Source: Dehalococcoidia bacterium (GTDB taxonomy: Bacteria > Chloroflexota > Dehalococcoidia > Bin125). Taken from it: a DNA stretch of 59,503 nucleotides. Where the stretch lies: the NCBI GenBank assembly GCA_022822375.1, contig JAJEBU010000099.1, positions 1 through 59,503 on the forward strand, in the 5' to 3' direction. Shown one piece after another: positions 16,772-36,998 of the stretch. A model generated the notes under the pieces. The model was not told the DNA's origin and searched no databases. It was given only the letters and a program-made list of their open reading frames with translations. The position numbers and the translations under genes were made by a program. Numbering within the stretch: position 1 is the first letter of the stretch; each line of letters starts with the position of its first letter.

Positions 16772-17392
16772 TCAGCTCAGGAAGAAGACGAGCGGGAAGA
16801 TGACCAGCAGCCATACGAAACCGACAAAGTGCCAGTACAGCGTCGCGGCCTCAATCGCCGTGTTGCGCTTGGCGTCGAAGTGGCCGAGCAGACCGCGCAG
16901 CCACTGCGCGAAGATGAACACCAACCCGCCGATCACGTGCGCGCCGTGGAACCCGGTCAGCGTGTAAAACGTGGCCGCGTACGGGCCGTCCGAGATGCCG
17001 AAGTCGGCGTGCTCCCACTCGAAGTACTGGTTGATGATGAAGGCCGTGCCGACGACCAGCACGATCGCCATGTTGATCAGCATCGCCTTGCGGTTGCCCT
17101 TGCGGATCGCGAACGCCGCGAGCTGCATCGGGATCGACGTGCTGACCAACAGCACCGTGAACAGGATCGGCAGGAGGTGATCGCCTTCCACTCGGTGCCC
17201 GCCGTTGGTTGGCTCCCACAGCAGCGTGTCGGAGTGCAGCGCGAGCATCGCCGCGATCAGGCCGGCGAAGAACATGATCTCGGAGAAGATGAAGAAGATG
17301 ATCCCCCAGAGGCCGGTCGTCATCGGCTCGTCGCCGACGAGGAAGCTGCGAATCGGGTGCACCCGCTTGTGTGGGACGGCTGAGGCTGCCAT
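16772..17392 (-). CDS. ctaE: Cytochrome c oxidase subunit III
   Basis: A 206-residue five-helix form of subunit III. Recognisable by GIIFFIFSEIMFFAGLIAAM near residues 30-50 and by the C-terminal segment TLTGFHGAHVIGGL followed by ATLYWHFVGFVWLLVIFPLV. It stabilises proton pumping in subunit I. The start lies two bases after the ctaD stop. Confidence 0.96.
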   Translation of the reverse strand: MAASAVPHKRVHPIRSFLVGDEPMTTGLWGIIFFIFSEIMFFAGLIAAMLALHSDTLLWEPTNGGHRVEGDHLLPILFTVLLVSTSIPMQLAAFAIRKGNRKAMLINMAIVLVVGTAFIINQYFEWEHADFGISDGPYAATFYTLTGFHGAHVIGGLVFIFAQWLRGLLGHFDAKRNTAIEAATLYWHFVGFVWLLVIFPLVFFLS

Positions 17393-17394
17393 GA

Positions 17395-19137
17395 CTACCC
17401 CTCCTCCCGCGCGGACTCGGAGGGCTGTGCGGTGCCCCCTCTTCCGTGTCCATTGCCGTTGTGGCCGTTGTTGACGTGGTAGTGCGGGTCGTCCTGCAGC
17501 CGCTCACCGAAGCGCAGGTCGAACAGCGGCCGCTCGGAGCGAATCTCCGGCAGCGAGTCGAAGTTGTGGGCCGGCGGCGGTGACGTCGTCGCCCACTCCA
17601 ATGTCGTGCCTTCCCATGGGTCGGACCCCGCGCGCTCTCCCCACTTCAGCGAGTAGAACACGTTGTAGAGGAAGACCATCATGCCGGCGGCCGAGACGAA
17701 CGCGCCGATCGTGATCAGCATGTTCATCAGCTCCCAGCCGGGATTGGCGACGTAGTCGTTGATCCGACGCGGCATGCCGTCGAGCCCCAGCAGCAGCTGC
17801 GTGAAAAAGACCAGGTTGACACCGATGAACAGCAGCCAGAAGTGGAGCTTGCCCAGCCCCTCGTTCATGAACTTGCCGAACATCTTGGGGAACCAGTAGT
17901 AGCAGCCAGCGAGGAATCCGAACGTCGCCGCAATCGACATCGTGTAGTGGAAGTGTCCGACCACGAAGTAGGTGTCGTGCAGCGCGAAGTCAACCGGCAC
18001 CGCGGCGTGAAAGACGCCCGTGATGCCGCCGATCAGGAAGAGCATCAGGAAGCCGACGCTGAACAGCATGGCGGTCGGGAAGACGTTCGATCCGCGCCAC
18101 ATGGTCGCGATCCAGTTAAACATCTTGACGCCGGTCGGCACCGCAATCAGGAACGTCGCGCCCATGAAGAAGGGCAGGAACACGCCGCCCGTCGTGAACA
18201 TGTGATGGGCCCAGACGATGAACCCCAACAGTCCGATCCCGACCAACGCCAGCACCATCGAGCGATAGCCGAAGATCGGCCGCCGCGTGAACACGCCGAA
18301 GACGTCGGAGACGATGCCCATCGCGGGCAGGATCATGATGTAGACGGCCGGGTGCGAATAGAACCAGAACAGATTCTGCCAGAGCAGCGGCTGTCCGCCA
18401 TTGGCTGGGTCGAAGAACGCGCCCTCTGCGCCGTTGCGGTCGATGAAACCGAGCACCAGCGCAGCTGCCAGGACGGGGGTCGAGAGCAGGATCAGCAGCC
18501 CCGTGACGAGCGTCGTCCAGGTAAACAGCGGCAGCCGCCACATGGTCATGCCCGGCGCCCGCATCTTGAAGATCGTGACCAGGAAGTTGACCGACCCGAA
18601 GATCGACGCCTGCCCGAGCAGGATCACACCGACGAGCCACATGTCCATGCCCGCGCCGGGCGGTTCGGCGTTGTTGCCGGTGTCCAGCGTGACCGGCGGG
18701 TAGGCCGTCCAACCAGCCGAGGCGGTGCCACCCTCGACGGCGAAGCTCATCGCCAGCAGCGCACCGCCGAACAGGAAAATCCAGAAGGACAGCGCGTTGA
18801 TGCGCGGGAAGGCCATGTCCAGCGCGCCAATCTGCAGCGGCATCGAGTAGTTCATGAACGCCGCGCCGACGGGCAACAGGAAGAGGAAGATCATCACGCT
18901 GCCATGCATCGTGAAGATCGAGTTGTAGGTCTCTGCCGAGATGATCGTGCCGGCCTGCGCCAGCTCGGTCCGCATGACCAGCGAGAAGGCCATGCCGACG
19001 AGCCCAAAGGCCCCGGCCGCCCAGAGGTACATGATGCCGATTTTCTTGTGGTCGACGGTCGTCAACCACTCGAGCACCGTGCGCCAGACATTTGCGCCGG
19101 CATATGGTGTCGTCTGCGCCCCCGCCAGTGTCGCCAT
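17395..19137 (-). CDS. ctaD: Cytochrome c oxidase subunit I, A2-type
   Basis: Catalytic heme-copper subunit of 580 residues with about 12 membrane segments. Ligand motifs are intact: heme a His in TMHGSVMIF, CuB His and cross-linked Tyr in FYSHPAVYIMILP, CuB His pair in WAHHMFTTG, heme a3/a His in VGHFHYTMS, and the K-channel Lys in TGVKMFNW. The sequence YSHPAV replaces the GHPEV motif with Glu, which places it in the A2 subfamily like the Thermus caa3 enzyme. A soluble Gly/His/Asn-rich tail of about 60 residues follows the last helix. The gene is 45 bases after ctaC. Confidence 0.97.
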   Translation of the reverse strand: MATLAGAQTTPYAGANVWRTVLEWLTTVDHKKIGIMYLWAAGAFGLVGMAFSLVMRTELAQAGTIISAETYNSIFTMHGSVMIFLFLLPVGAAFMNYSMPLQIGALDMAFPRINALSFWIFLFGGALLAMSFAVEGGTASAGWTAYPPVTLDTGNNAEPPGAGMDMWLVGVILLGQASIFGSVNFLVTIFKMRAPGMTMWRLPLFTWTTLVTGLLILLSTPVLAAALVLGFIDRNGAEGAFFDPANGGQPLLWQNLFWFYSHPAVYIMILPAMGIVSDVFGVFTRRPIFGYRSMVLALVGIGLLGFIVWAHHMFTTGGVFLPFFMGATFLIAVPTGVKMFNWIATMWRGSNVFPTAMLFSVGFLMLFLIGGITGVFHAAVPVDFALHDTYFVVGHFHYTMSIAATFGFLAGCYYWFPKMFGKFMNEGLGKLHFWLLFIGVNLVFFTQLLLGLDGMPRRINDYVANPGWELMNMLITIGAFVSAAGMMVFLYNVFYSLKWGERAGSDPWEGTTLEWATTSPPPAHNFDSLPEIRSERPLFDLRFGERLQDDPHYHVNNGHNGNGHGRGGTAQPSESAREEG

Positions 19138-19182: not shown

Positions 19183-20535
19183 CTAGCCGCCGGCCTCAAT
19201 CAGTTCAGCGAGCTTACTCGGGATCACCGCCGCCTCAGGCGGTCGCGGCACCGTCTGCAGCCAGGCGTAGATGTCCGCGACATCCTCGTCCGACACCTGG
19301 TCTGGCGGGAATGCGGTCATCGCCTCCAGCGGCTCGCGGTACTGCGTGATCACGCGGTCGAGCGGCACGATCGTCTTGGCGATCGTCGGGCCGACGAGGC
19401 CCTCGCCGCTGTCGCCGTGACAGACGTTGCAGCCGAGCGAGAAGAACAGGCTCTGGCCGTTGGTCGCGTTGCCGACGGCGCCCTCTTCCTGCTCGACCTC
19501 TTCTTCGCCGCCGAAGTCGCCGTCAATCGGTTCGGGAGCCGAGCCGGCCTTGTCCGCAAACCAGGCCTCAAAGTCCGCCGGTTCGAGTGCGCGCACGGTG
19601 TAGATCATTCGCGCGTGGTCGCGACCGCAGAACTCGGCGCACTGACTGGCGAAGTCGCCTGCCTCGGTGATGCGCACCCACAGCGTCTGCACGCGGCCGG
19701 GCACAGCGTCAAGCTTCGTCAGGAACTGCGGTGTGTAGAACGCGTGCAACACGTCGGCTGATGCAATGTTGAAGCGAATCATCGGACCCACCGGCACGGT
19801 CACGATCGGCGTGTTGTCGGCCTGCTGCAAACGACCTTCGGCGACGGTGTCGGTGCCGTTGAAGGAACGCATCACTTCGCTGCCTGCGGCGTGGCGAATC
19901 GGGACCGTGCCGTTGACCGCACGCTCGACCGTCACCACGTCGCCCGTGCGGGCGACCACGCGCATGTGCTCGACGCCGAGCTTGAGGGTCATGAAGGGCA
20001 CGACCAGTGAGGGATCCTCGAGCATGATTTCCGTGTCGGACGGATTCTCGGAGACGGCCTCGGCCAGATCGGTGCCCAGCGGTACGGCGTAGTTGAAGGC
20101 CCACGCCCATTGGCGCCCCTGCACATCGACGACCACAGTCTCTTCGTCCGGGTCAGCGGCGGCCTGAATGTCCTGCAAGACAAAGAAGGAGATGATGAAC
20201 AGCGCAATCACGATCACGGTCGGGATGCCCGTCCAGAGGATCTCTGCCGTAGCGTTGTGTCCGATCTGCGTGGGCAGTTCGTCGTCGCTCTTGCGCTTGT
20301 AGCGGAACACGACCCAGAGAATCATGGCTTCCACGATGATGAAGACGGCCACGCCGATGCCGAACACGAGGAAGTACAGCGCGCGGATCGAGTCGCCCTG
20401 TTCGGAGACGGCCTCGGGCAGCGCGACCTGGGCCTGGGCGAGACCGGACAGCGCCAGCAGCGCGAGCGCGACCGCGCCCATGACTAGCGTCAAGCGGCCC
20501 CATCGGGTTCGCCACAGCCGTTGATGTGCCCTCAC
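19183..20535 (-). CDS. ctaC: Cytochrome c oxidase subunit II with fused cytochrome c domain
   Basis: Electron entry subunit, 450 residues. It has a signal segment, two membrane helices (about 52-77 and 102-122), GRQWAWAF at 140-147, and CuA ligands H264 (VLHAF), C299, E301, C303, H307 and M310 (CAEFCGRDHARM). A C-terminal cytochrome c follows with heme motif CNVCH at 369-373 and a likely axial Met at 406, so this is a caa3-type oxidase. Unusual: about 85 extra residues (roughly 155-240) are inserted between GRQWAWAF and the CuA His; see findings. It lies 46 bases after the chimeric gene upstream. Confidence 0.96.
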   Translation of the reverse strand: MRAHQRLWRTRWGRLTLVMGAVALALLALSGLAQAQVALPEAVSEQGDSIRALYFLVFGIGVAVFIIVEAMILWVVFRYKRKSDDELPTQIGHNATAEILWTGIPTVIVIALFIISFFVLQDIQAAADPDEETVVVDVQGRQWAWAFNYAVPLGTDLAEAVSENPSDTEIMLEDPSLVVPFMTLKLGVEHMRVVARTGDVVTVERAVNGTVPIRHAAGSEVMRSFNGTDTVAEGRLQQADNTPIVTVPVGPMIRFNIASADVLHAFYTPQFLTKLDAVPGRVQTLWVRITEAGDFASQCAEFCGRDHARMIYTVRALEPADFEAWFADKAGSAPEPIDGDFGGEEEVEQEEGAVGNATNGQSLFFSLGCNVCHGDSGEGLVGPTIAKTIVPLDRVITQYREPLEAMTAFPPDQVSDEDVADIYAWLQTVPRPPEAAVIPSKLAELIEAGG

Positions 20536-20581: not shown

Positions 20582-21739
20582 TCAGCCTGCGCCGTCCGCG
20601 CCGTCCATCAACGGCGCGTCTGACACATGCTCGTCCCCGTGTGCTTCGTGGTCATCGTGCTCGGGCTCCTCGTAGTAGCGGATGTCCTCGAGGAACCAGC
20701 CGACGCCGCCAAACACGATTAGTGTGATGCCCGCGCCCAACACCTGGTCAGTGAAGACGGCTCCGGCCGCGGTCATGATCAGGCCGACTGCGAAGACGAG
20801 CGGCGAGATACTTGGCGGCGGCATGTGGATGCCGGGCGGCGGCGGCGCAACACCAGGCATTACCTGCAGCGGATTCTGGCGAAACTCCGCCGGTCCGCCC
20901 GCTTCGAAGTAGCCCATGTCCTCGAGGAACCAGCGGACCGCCGAGAGCACGACCAGCGTGATCCCGACGCTCAGCAGCTGTCCGACGAAGACCGCGCCCG
21001 CGGCCAGCATGATCAATCCCAGTGCAAACAGCACCGGCGCCAGGCTGGGCGGCGGCAGATGAGATTCAGGCGTGTCGTGGTCGCCGTGCCCGTGCGCACC
21101 GTGACCGTGCGCGTCGTCCAGACCGGAGGGCAGGGCGAGCGTCGCCGCCGGCTGCGGGGCCGGTGCAGCCAGCGCGGGCACGTCTCCGCTGCGAGACGCC
21201 GGCAACGGTTGCAGATACCCGTCGGCGATCACCTTGCGCTCGTCGCGATAGGCCATCGGACGCAGCGCCGGCGGCAGCAACCCAGCAATGGGCTTGAACA
21301 GGTCAGGCCCGCTGTAGGCCTCCTGTAGATCAAGTCCGAATCCAGCCGGCCGCTGGCGGTATGTCACCAGCTTGTGCAGGGCGATCCCGTTGATCCGGCA
21401 GAGGCGAATCGCGCGGCCGCTCTGACCCATCGGCACGTACAGCACCAGCGGGCCGGCCGCGGCCAACGGCTTCCAACGCTCTTCTGCCGTGTCCTGGTTG
21501 ACCTCGTGCGTCAGCGCCAGCTCGCCCGAGAGGGCGATGAAGTGGCCCGGCTCGTCGGTCACCACGATGTCCGGGTAAATCCAGCCTGAGTTGCGGACGC
21601 GGACACCCATCTGCTCGGCCGGGAAGTTGACCGTAACTTCGCGATCAGGGAACTCGTCGTTGGGATAGCCGTAGCTCGCCTCAGCGATCTGCTGAAGGAC
21701 GGAATGCCGCTTCTGCCTCGCCGACTCCAGCGTGGGCAT
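20582..21739 (-). CDS. Chimeric membrane protein: Uma2-like nuclease-fold domain plus two oxidase-subunit-IV-like repeats
   Basis: 385 residues with three parts. Residues about 1-175 resemble Uma2/PD-(D/E)XK folds: YPDIVV with D57, LALTHEV with E79, then RWKPLAAAGPLVLYV. Residues 211-222 are His/Gly-rich (HGHGAHGHGDHD). Residues about 229-280 and 307-357 are two near-identical two-helix repeats (PPPSLAP..FALGLIM.AAGAVF..Q, then GITL...WFLED..Y), which recall actinobacterial-type oxidase subunit IV. The ATG at 21739 is preferred for its upstream GGGGAG; an ATG at 21781 is also in frame. It is first in the caa3 run, 46 bases before ctaC. A candidate promoter box TAGGAT is at 21809-21814. The metal role of the His-rich stretch is inference. 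Confidence 0.75.
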   Translation of the reverse strand: MPTLESARQKRHSVLQQIAEASYGYPNDEFPDREVTVNFPAEQMGVRVRNSGWIYPDIVVTDEPGHFIALSGELALTHEVNQDTAEERWKPLAAAGPLVLYVPMGQSGRAIRLCRINGIALHKLVTYRQRPAGFGLDLQEAYSGPDLFKPIAGLLPPALRPMAYRDERKVIADGYLQPLPASRSGDVPALAAPAPQPAATLALPSGLDDAHGHGAHGHGDHDTPESHLPPPSLAPVLFALGLIMLAAGAVFVGQLLSVGITLVVLSAVRWFLEDMGYFEAGGPAEFRQNPLQVMPGVAPPPPGIHMPPPSISPLVFAVGLIMTAAGAVFTDQVLGAGITLIVFGGVGWFLEDIRYYEEPEHDDHEAHGDEHVSDAPLMDGADGAG

Positions 21740-21834: not shown

Positions 21835-23022
21835 CTATCCCCCGCGTGAACTGTCGACCGAGCGGTCCGGCTGATTGATCGGGATGTAACGCGGCCGATA
21901 GATGGCCACCCCGCGTCCGTTGCGGGCGCGGGTGCGCTCGTCCACGATCTGCGCGCCAATTCCCGCAATCCGCGACCAACCGAACAGCGTCGTGTAGTAG
22001 TCGGGATCGGTGAATCCCAACGCATTCACGAGACTGCCCGAAATCAGGTCCACATTCGGGTACGGATTCGACACTTTTGGGTTCTCGGACAGCACGCGGA
22101 TGCCAGCTTCACGGACCGCCTTGACGACCTTGAACCAGTGGTCGTCGGGGCAGAGTTCTTCGCCGACGCCCAGCTGGACCTTGGCGCGCGGGTCCTCCTG
22201 GCGCAGGACGGCGTGTCCGAACCCGAAGATCAAGCCACCGTTGGCCAGGCGCTCCTTGAGGACGGTGTAGGCCTCGTCCGGATTCTCGGTGTTGACCTCG
22301 TGCACCATCTTGAAGGCGTCCTGATTGGCCATCCCGTGACGCGGCCCGGCCAATGCGTTCATCCCCGATGCCATCGAGCGGTACATGTCGGCCAGGCCCG
22401 AAGCGACGGCGCGGCCAGTGAACGTCGAGAGATTGCCGCCACCGTGGTCGGCGTGCAGGTTGTAGTAGACGGACAGCAGCCGGGTCAGGGCCGCCTCGTC
22501 GCCGTCCGGCATGCCCAGCATGTGGACAAAGTTGTTCACGTAGCCGCGCGACGGCTCGGACGGGATCAGATCGCCCCAACCCTCGCGCAGACGGAAGATC
22601 GCGGCCAATGCCGTCGGAATCCGCGCGACGAGGTTGAGCGCATCTTCGTAGTAGTCCTCCGTCTTGCCCGTCATACCCAGAATCTGAATCGCGGCGCAGA
22701 ACAGATCCATCGGATGGCCCGACATCGGCATCGCGGCAATCGCGGACATCGTCTCGTCCGACACCTCTGAGCGCTCTGCGATGTCGTCGATGACGCCCTG
22801 CCGCTCCGCGTCCGAGGGCAGTTCCTTGTTGAAGAGCAGGTGAATGATGTCCTCAGCCTGCAGGAACGCCAACTCGGCAATCGGATAGCCCACGTAGGAG
22901 ACGCCCTCCTGCGGGTCGACATAGCTGGTCTCGCAAGTGCCGACGGGATACCCGCGCAGGCCGGTATCGAGATGGTCGTTGGTGATCGTGAACTCGATGG
23001 TCGGAATCTCAGACACTGGCAT
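21835..23022 (-). CDS. gltA: Citrate synthase
   Basis: Condenses acetyl-CoA and oxaloacetate in the TCA cycle. The 395-residue product carries the family His segments HADHGGGNLSTF, GPRHGMANQD and GFGHAVLRQEDPRA, and a C-terminal Arg-containing segment (NGRGVAIYRPRYIP). These motifs resemble the mitochondrial-type sequence more than the E. coli hexameric type. I chose the ATG at 23022 (MPVSEIPTIEFTITND) because the family sequence starts there and GGGGAAA precedes it; the frame is open 51 codons further upstream into the GreA-like gene. It lies between that gene and the oxidase cluster, all on one strand. Confidence 0.95.
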   Translation of the reverse strand: MPVSEIPTIEFTITNDHLDTGLRGYPVGTCETSYVDPQEGVSYVGYPIAELAFLQAEDIIHLLFNKELPSDAERQGVIDDIAERSEVSDETMSAIAAMPMSGHPMDLFCAAIQILGMTGKTEDYYEDALNLVARIPTALAAIFRLREGWGDLIPSEPSRGYVNNFVHMLGMPDGDEAALTRLLSVYYNLHADHGGGNLSTFTGRAVASGLADMYRSMASGMNALAGPRHGMANQDAFKMVHEVNTENPDEAYTVLKERLANGGLIFGFGHAVLRQEDPRAKVQLGVGEELCPDDHWFKVVKAVREAGIRVLSENPKVSNPYPNVDLISGSLVNALGFTDPDYYTTLFGWSRIAGIGAQIVDERTRARNGRGVAIYRPRYIPINQPDRSVDSSRGG

Positions 23023-23104
23023 CGCTTTCCCCGCGCGCACCCTGAAGTGATGTCTGGCACCGGATCCCCGTGCGCGGGAGACCCGGCTCAGCTCGCTCGT
23101 TCCT

Positions 23105-24178
23105 CTACGCGTCCTGTTTCGCCTCAGTCGGCGGCGCGGCCGCCACCGAGACCAACTTGAACCGCTTGCGGCCACTCGGCGTGTCGATCTCGATGACGCG
23201 GTTGGCTTGCTGGTCGAGCAAGCCGCGACCGAGCGGGCTGTCGACCGAGATTCGCCGCTGCGCCGCGTTGGCTTGAGTGGTTCCGACCAGAGTGTACTCG
23301 TTGGCCTGTCCCTGCTCGGCGCCGTCCGCGTCGACGACCACGACGGTCACCAGGCTGCCAATCTGCGCGCGGCCCGTGTCGGCCGCTTCGCGCACGACCG
23401 CGCGGTCGATCTGATAGCGCAGTTCGTCAATCCGCGAGCTCACCCGCTCTTGTTGTTCGCGCGCTGCCTCGAGCGGGGCGTTCTCGCGGATGTCCTTGTC
23501 CTCGCGCGCCGCGGCGACGGCCTGGATCAGGTCCGGCATGCGCGACTCGGCGTCGCTCAGCTCACGCTTCAGATGGTCCAGACCCTCCGCCGTCATCTCG
23601 AACGTCTCGGCCTCCTCGTGCGTGAAGTTGCCTGTCGTGCGCACGCCGGCCGAGGATCGCTTGATCTTCAGGTGGTTGCCCAGATTCTGCTCGCACCACT
23701 CTCGTTCCTTCCAGCAATAGCGGAGGAACTCCTTGACCGGGCGCAACTTGGACTCGAGATCGGTCGTGTTGTCGCCCATGATCTGTTGGAACCGCTCGAT
23801 CCCGTTCGGGTTCAGTTCCACGATCGGCGTGGCGGGACCGACGTGCGAGAGGAAGCGGTTGATTGCCTGGCGCGCCGCCTCGTCGAGCTCAAACACGGTC
23901 CGCTTGGCCGGCGCGGATCGAGGCGAGGTCTTGCGATTCTTGCGCTTGGCCTCCCGCGCCTCTTCCCAGATGAAGTACTCGGTCACCGCCTGATCCAGCG
24001 TGACGGCGGACGCAGCCGCGCCGTTGCCGCCCTGCACGGAACGATCAGCAAGCGCCACCGATGATGGACGCTCGACGACGTCGCCCGCGACCACATCGAC
24101 ATCATCGCCGTCCTCGTCCACGATGTCCTCAACCGCGGTCTCGGCCTCATCCATTCGCGCATCGTCAGACAGTCCCAT
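23105..24178 (-). CDS. GreA-like transcription factor fused to an integrase-type SAM-like domain
   Basis: 357 residues. Residues 1-45 are strongly acidic. Residues about 58-170 look like the SAM-like N-terminal DNA-binding domain of tyrosine integrases (TLDQAVTEYFIWEEA, then FLSHVGPATPIVELNPNGIE and RPVKEFLRYCWKERE), without any catalytic domain. Residues about 190-345 are GreA: a coiled coil with conserved acidic tip D229 and E232 (REDKDIRENAP) and the C-terminal FKBP-like part (TLVGTTQANAAQRRISVDSP). The usual NAEY after the tip is NAPL. GGGAGG precedes the ATG. GreA rescues backtracked RNA polymerase; the fusion could add DNA or partner contact, which is inference. It begins the citrate synthase/oxidase run. 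Confidence 0.85.
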   Translation of the reverse strand: MGLSDDARMDEAETAVEDIVDEDGDDVDVVAGDVVERPSSVALADRSVQGGNGAAASAVTLDQAVTEYFIWEEAREAKRKNRKTSPRSAPAKRTVFELDEAARQAINRFLSHVGPATPIVELNPNGIERFQQIMGDNTTDLESKLRPVKEFLRYCWKEREWCEQNLGNHLKIKRSSAGVRTTGNFTHEEAETFEMTAEGLDHLKRELSDAESRMPDLIQAVAAAREDKDIRENAPLEAAREQQERVSSRIDELRYQIDRAVVREAADTGRAQIGSLVTVVVVDADGAEQGQANEYTLVGTTQANAAQRRISVDSPLGRGLLDQQANRVIEIDTPSGRKRFKLVSVAAAPPTEAKQDA

Positions 24179-36248: not shown

Positions 36249-36998
36249 ATGACTCGCCAAGATGCCTCTTCCAGCGTGCAGACGCCCGTGCGCTACGTGC
36301 TGCCCGAAGCCCCTGAGCGGCACTATGACGAAGTGACCTCCTACACGTATGTGCACAACCTCGGCCACTCGAATCACCTGGCCCGGCATTTTGGCAAGCC
36401 CGAAACGACCATCGTCGGCGCTGAACTCTACATGGTCCTGAGCCGCGGTTTCCGACCTCGACGCGCGCCCGACCTGTTGATCGCCTTCGACGTGGACCCT
36501 GAGCTGTACTTCGAGCAGAACGGCTACGTGGTCTCCGATCAGGGCAAGCCGCCTGACTTTGTCCTGGAAGTCGGTTCGCCCAGCACTGGCTGGGTCGACA
36601 CGCACGACAAGCGCGAAGAGTACGCCGAGCTCGGCATTCGCGAGTACTGGCGCTTCGACCACGACGGCAAGTCGCACGGCACCTTGCTCGCCGGCGACCG
36701 TCTGGTTGACGGCAACTATCAACCCATGCCCATCGCAGATCTAGGCGATGGCGTCCTGCAGGGTCAGAGCGACGTCCTTGGCCTCTGGTTGCGTTGGTAC
36801 GACGGCGAGCTCTTGTGGATCGACCCGCAAACCGGCGAGCACATCGCCACATTCGACAGCGAGCGCGAGGCAAGACTCGCCGCCGAGGCGCAGGTGCAGG
36901 TGGCAGAAGCCCAGATTCAATTGGCAGAAGCCGCGCAGCGTGCCGCCGAAGCTCGCGTGGGCGAACTTGAGGACGAACTGCGCCGACGAGAACGCTAG
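36249..36998 (+). CDS. Uma2-family PD-(D/E)XK protein with C-terminal coiled coil
   Basis: 249-residue Uma2 (DUF820) family protein with a restriction-endonuclease-like fold. Core residues: APDLLIAFDV (Asp), PPDFVLEVGSPSTG (Glu), then DKREEYAELGIREYWRFD. A C-terminal heptad-rich Ala/Glu/Gln helix (about 195-249) looks like a coiled coil. These proteins are common in Chloroflexota and cyanobacteria, with no settled function. A four-codon reading frame (ATG at 36238) overlaps the start by the ATGA pattern and may couple initiation. Compare the related domain in the protein at 20582. Confidence 0.88.
   Translation: MTRQDASSSVQTPVRYVLPEAPERHYDEVTSYTYVHNLGHSNHLARHFGKPETTIVGAELYMVLSRGFRPRRAPDLLIAFDVDPELYFEQNGYVVSDQGKPPDFVLEVGSPSTGWVDTHDKREEYAELGIREYWRFDHDGKSHGTLLAGDRLVDGNYQPMPIADLGDGVLQGQSDVLGLWLRWYDGELLWIDPQTGEHIATFDSEREARLAAEAQVQVAEAQIQLAEAAQRAAEARVGELEDELRRRER

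Follow-up and report, generated by a model that had tools for sequence, protein, structure and literature searches.

The first two transmembrane helices of cytochrome c oxidase subunit III (TM1-2 of COX3) are not always carried by the CtaE polypeptide. Indeed, in M. smegmatis CtaE and CtaF together make up subunit III, CtaF forming TM1 and TM2, and the subunit III of F. johnsoniae is devoid of TM1-2 (both reviewed in PMC8361435). The N-terminus of COX3 has also been linked to proton entry: in R. sphaeroides, COX3 His7 and His10 are located near the entrance of the D channel and their mutation slows proton uptake, according to a passage of PMC4540416 that cites Alnajjar et al. 2014.

Here we describe a gene found in a caa3-type oxidase operon within a 59,503-nucleotide stretch of DNA (the window) from a Dehalococcoidia bacterium. 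Its product most likely resembles the actinobacterial system of CtaF (subunit IV, PF12270) and five-helix CtaE, of which M. smegmatis is an example, in that a separate protein supplies TM1-2 of COX3. Unlike CtaF, however, it has a soluble domain at its N-terminus, followed by two hairpins of TM1-2 type in tandem; it stays below the PF12270 cut-off, which a relative in its family exceeds, and its gene precedes ctaC. In the aa3-600 quinol oxidase, as in the majority of Dehalococcoidia caa3 oxidases, the C-terminus of subunit I bears a homologous displaced hairpin with the same motif, but here the hairpin is duplicated and located on another protein, not on COX1.

Results

The locus and its conservation

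The gene order is greA > citrate synthase > fusion gene > ctaC > ctaD > ctaE > ctaG > ctaA > ctaB, with ctaC starting 46 bases downstream of the fusion gene. The features referred to below, all on the minus strand, are the following:

20582..21739 (-), whole fusion gene, encoding P0001 (385 aa), ATG at 21739 and stop at 20582
21305..21739 (-), N-terminal domain (N-domain), residues 1-145, probable PD-(D/E)XK-like fold without motif-III active residues
21125..21304 (-), residues 146-205, C-terminal extension of the N-domain and Pro/Ala-rich linker (lower confidence)
21062..21124 (-), residues 206-226, segment rich in His, Asp, Glu and Gly that precedes hairpin 1 and corresponds to the His-rich N-terminus of COX3
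20906..21061 (-), hairpin 1, residues 227-278, COX3 TM1-TM2 type
20672..20827 (-), hairpin 2, residues 305-356, COX3 TM1-TM2 type, the more canonical copy
20585..20671 (-), C-terminal tail, His/acid-rich
21835..23175 (-), citrate synthase, upstream neighbour, kept in the family
19183..20535 (-), ctaC, COX2 with fused cytochrome c
17395..19137 (-), ctaD, COX1, with the YSHPAVY (A2-type) motif at residue 260 and Asp107, without C-terminal hairpin
16772..17392 (-), ctaE, COX3 reduced to its five C-terminal helices

The elements listed in a first-pass annotation (YPDIVV, HEV and RWKPLAAAG stretches, a His-rich linker and two two-helix repeats, at 46 bases from ctaC) are all present. The close relatives of the window's genome are Dehalococcoidia/Chloroflexota MAGs; we call its family f1, and the other family names used below (f33, f50, f59 and so on) are arbitrary labels as well. 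The fusion ORF is a real gene. The full protein is encoded in 19 of the 20 f1 genomes, and in 15 of the 15 that are of good quality, so that the fusion before ctaC does recur in related genomes, as the annotation had proposed to check; both the fusion and the gene order are conserved within f1. In the twentieth genome (G018) ctaD is present and the contig ends ~1.4 kb upstream of it, inside the operon. The median dN/dS is ~0.07-0.13 across all parts of the gene, which indicates purifying selection. A plasmid search gave no match. Searches of the family libraries returned nothing with the architecture of this protein, in line with the first-pass annotation, which knew of no described protein built in this way.

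Two neighbouring genes carry additions of their own. In ctaC an extra stretch of ~80-95 residues (~residues 150-246) separates the membrane part of COX2 from the CuA domain; the other families of the class align around it as two pieces, and the f1 members align through it. The GreA-type factor (23105-24178, -) has ~190 additional N-terminal residues.

The C-terminal hairpins

The two repeats of ~50 residues had been described as near-identical, but they share about 60% identity. Within a protein, the two repeats often resemble each other more closely than either resembles its counterpart in another genus, which points to conversion or repeated duplication. In P0001, hairpin 2 scores ~59 bits vs ~45 bits for hairpin 1. 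An HMM built on the f1 repeats matches the C-terminus of ctaD in most other families of the class that were sampled, as well as small or differently fused proteins adjoining cta genes. The motif HxPxPSxxP...W..E is common to these hairpins, and the likeness thus exceeds hydrophobicity.

We combined the f1 repeats with this wider hairpin set (profile A3) and searched all PDB chains. Matches fell on the N-terminus of COX3, over its first two helices (1m56_C residues 9-65, E 2.3e-6; 5j4z residues 6-62, E 3e-6), on the C-terminus of subunit I of the aa3-600 quinol oxidase, on Thermus caa3 I+III at 548-600 (from 2yev, the I+III chain only) and, in actinobacterial subunit IV (CtaF), on the second half. 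With the f1 repeats alone nearly all targets were COX3 and quinol oxidase subunit I, at weak scores (best E 0.016, against COX3), so that the stronger link runs via the wider hairpin set. Searched one by one, 23 of the 26 hairpins gave a PF12270 match with E no higher than 1, over positions ~80-125 of that model; P0001 scores 22.6 vs the curated cut-off of 26.9, and a relative in the family (L030) reaches 36.5. On these profile matches, the repeats are COX3 TM1-2 hairpins and not a classical subunit IV, an identity that we dropped after the PDB searches. NCBIfam matches to SidA_fam and SCO2097_fam were far below cut-off, covered helices only and were taken as chance. The full-length AlphaFold2 model was poor (pLDDT 52).

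The genome's only COX3, encoded by ctaE, matches PF00510 from position 74-75 to 251, of 258, and aligns with residues ~80-253 of solved COX3; it is therefore without TM1-2. Among solved structures ctaD is nearest to actinobacterial CtaD, and it ends without the C-terminal hairpin that most other Dehalococcoidia ctaD carry. As both ctaE and ctaD are devoid of this hairpin, no candidates for helices 1-2 are left but the two repeats. When a profile made from hairpins outside f1 only (A6) was run on all f1 genomes as an independent test, each of the 19 gave the two repeats as its only real matches, at E 1.7e-16 to 3e-8, the next best match standing at 0.04, and no other source of the hairpin was found there. 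Of the oxidase accessory of subunit-IV type initially proposed, the link to the oxidase is thus retained and the classical subunit IV is not: since the repeats match the very helices that ctaE is without, a core role, as part of subunit III, is most likely for the fusion protein.

The hairpin occurs in several settings in the class. In a quick COX1 tree, all sampled COX1 with a C-terminal hairpin formed one clade (18 rows). A second clade, in which f1 is sister to f33, comprises hairpins that are free-standing (f38), fused to ABM (f31), fused to ABM-TM-cupredoxin (f33) or fused to the N-domain (f1). The f33 protein, encoded directly after ctaE (L120:6553-7767, L124:10044-11429, L127:7484-8569), joins a COX3-type hairpin to ABM-like, helix and cupredoxin domains; it resembles the f1 protein in adding extra domains to the same hairpin, in a sister COX1 clade, but its partner domains differ and its hairpin is single. 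In f8 the hairpin stands at the N-terminus of ctaE, which is the ordinary COX3 layout. At the oxidase loci of f50 (L128, L129), which also belongs to the second clade, a TM1-2-type hairpin was not found in ctaD, ctaE or their neighbours, and TM1-2 may thus be dispensable in some lineages.

The His of the hairpin motif aligns with His10 of R. sphaeroides COX3 (1m56_C). Within the 21 residues ending at, and including, this motif His, the mean number of His is 3.2 for COX1-fused hairpins, 4.2 for the other ones and 3.6 for f1 hairpin 1, the background being 0.6-0.7; f1 hairpin 2 has 1.65, and no His-rich segment precedes it. A His/acid-rich segment precedes the hairpin in most other settings, COX1 C-termini included. 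The linker therefore does not represent a special metal-handling feature of the fusion, and the metal-handling role suggested in the first-pass annotation is not supported. ctaD retains the D-channel-entry Asp (D107) and the YSHPAVY motif, which is the A2 signature (PMC8361435), and the linker may act as a proton-collecting segment.

The N-terminal domain

The AlphaFold2 model of the N-domain (47 sequences) has a pLDDT of 82.9, with much of the core above 90. A helix is followed by strands 58-62 and 67-74, helix 82-95 and strand 98-103, the order found in PD-(D/E)XK folds, and the PD motif is present. Foldseek returned nothing below 0.001 in the PDB (best E 0.078), and six of the first seven matches are restriction-endonuclease-like, a class to which we take SfsA, YaeQ and the other top matches to belong. 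In a library of viral structures many nucleases and repair proteins were matched, the best E (2.3e-4) going to an unnamed protein. A sequence search of solved structures yielded only an irrelevant match at E 0.4. On the model, a PD-(D/E)XK-like fold is probable, not proven. The domain would share its core topology with Uma2/DUF820 (PF05685) and other PD-(D/E)XK nucleases, and this part of the earlier assignment to a Uma2-like nuclease is supported. Uma2 membership itself is not, as none of the 47 sequences gave a PF05685 profile match and the probability was 0.2% when they were compared, profile to profile, with eight Uma2 proteins from this genome. A defence or phage origin was also considered and rejected, PADLOC and PHROG searches giving no significant match. 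The genome holds 18 Uma2 matches elsewhere, any Uma2 being found in just 2 of 14 control genomes, and a genuine Uma2 match is present in the window at 36453-36791 (+).

Alignment with 36 homologues outside f1 places motif III at G-E73-L-A75. The first-pass annotation had read E-x-K as H-E79-V, which is the wrong register, and E79 lies beyond strand 67-74; it was correct in noting that the catalytic Lys is absent, as Lys never occurs at motif III in the 36 outside rows or in f1. In the outside rows Asp57 is found in 35 of 36, position 73 is E (21) or Q (11) and position 75 is E in 32. In f1 (11 rows) the motif-II Asp57 is kept in all 11, position 73 is D or E in 8 rows but L or V in the 3 basal ones, and position 75 is A or V. 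The D...(D/E)-x-K active-site signature of the superfamily is not found in the N-domain. The motif-III Lys is missing throughout the domain family and the f1 lineage has, in addition, a degraded acidic motif, so that the N-domain is probably non-catalytic, even though in the PD-(D/E)XK superfamily the basic residue is known to migrate to another motif (PMC1913061).

The N-domain, free-standing or fused, is present in 64 of the 197 genomes sampled in the class (f1 included), and is confined to Dehalococcoidia in a 350-genome sample of the phylum. Homologues without an oxidase link, which the first-pass annotation held to count against its reading, do exist, in that many free-standing N-domains are encoded at a distance from cta genes. 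This is not the case in f59, where in the four genomes with an assembled flank a free-standing copy adjoins ctaA, with greA on the other side (and in one case also citrate synthase); in a fifth f59 genome (G142) greA, citrate synthase and the N-domain gene are followed by the contig end. No N-domain/cta adjacency was found in the other families sampled, and the oxidase link thus concerns two lineages, f1 and f59, and is not universal. In f2 a single ORF joins a ferredoxin, two predicted helices and the N-domain (L140:8039-9220, L142:2039-3373, L143:8178-9392).

Discussion

Our results suggest, with good though not full confidence, that the fusion gene encodes a structural subunit of its operon's caa3-type cytochrome c oxidase, where it would supply TM1-2 of subunit III. 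Subunit III would be split, ctaE providing helices 3-7 and the fusion protein helices 1-2 in two tandem copies. The split itself is visible in the sequences, and we infer that the hairpins are present in the complex. Homology with COX3 would place the N-domain, and the two ends of either hairpin, on the cytoplasmic side; a second basis for this placing is that no strongly hydrophobic segment occurs in the first ~200 residues. The His/acid-rich segment before hairpin 1 would in that case come close to Asp107, at the D-channel entrance of ctaD, as the His7/His10 segment does in R. sphaeroides COX3, and could assist proton uptake as well as the contact between subunits I and III. The N-domain would most likely serve the oxidase as a cytoplasmic lid or contact domain without catalytic activity, which is the weakest step of the proposal. 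Both hairpins are candidates for the TM1-2 slot, hairpin 2 as the canonical one by sequence and hairpin 1 with its His segment, and the one left outside may contact a second oxidase or complex III.

Other explanations have to be weighed. The hairpins could dock only during oxidase biogenesis, for instance in copper or haem insertion, and be absent from the finished enzyme. The gene shares its operon with the assembly genes ctaG, ctaA and ctaB, and its His/acid-rich linker and tail could bind metal. However, the homologue of the repeats is a structural element missing from ctaE, the His-rich segment is also found before COX1-fused hairpins and no metal-chaperone family was matched, and we consider an assembly factor unlikely. 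It is even less likely that the N-domain is an active nuclease, or another nucleic-acid enzyme, tethered to the membrane through its oxidase-type hairpins and serving in defence or DNA uptake. Although its probable topology, its nuclease-like fold neighbours and the Asp57 retained throughout f1 would fit such an enzyme, the motif-III Lys is absent in the whole domain family, position 75 is E in most outside rows but A/V in f1, position 73 is L/V in the three basal rows, neither PADLOC nor PHROG gave support, and the gene keeps its place in an oxidase operon.

The likeness of the hairpins could also be a convergence of hydrophobic helices with no structural role in the oxidase, and the weakness of the f1-only profile against COX3 would be compatible with this. 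Such a coincidence is highly improbable, given that the common HxPxPSxxP...W..E motif goes beyond hydrophobicity and that the profile made outside f1 finds only the fusion protein in each f1 genome, precisely where ctaE and ctaD are without these helices. Several observations nevertheless count against a subunit III role: there are two hairpins for one slot, hairpin 2 is not preceded by a His segment, most free-standing N-domains are not near cta genes, the f1 repeats on their own reach only E 0.016 against COX3, and no hairpin was found at the f50 loci.

A degenerate nuclease-fold domain may have been recruited as a permanent cytoplasmic part of the oxidase over the D-channel mouth, tuning proton uptake or linking oxidases, and delivered there by a duplicated COX3 TM1-2 hairpin; this reading is tentative, and we consider it rather doubtful. 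A literature search, partial in coverage, gave no description of such a fusion.

In conclusion, the COX3 TM1-2 pair behaves as a mobile module within one bacterial class, where it is found as a part of COX3, at the C-terminus of COX1, free-standing, fused to ABM/cupredoxin domains, or in two copies joined to a nuclease-like domain. The last of these settings appears to be an undescribed way to build a respiratory complex, conserved in a single Dehalococcoidia family that is represented here by metagenome assemblies. A domain family of the Dehalococcoidia that had no annotation thereby gains its first physical context, and the role of extra soluble domains at the cytoplasmic face of complex IV becomes testable.
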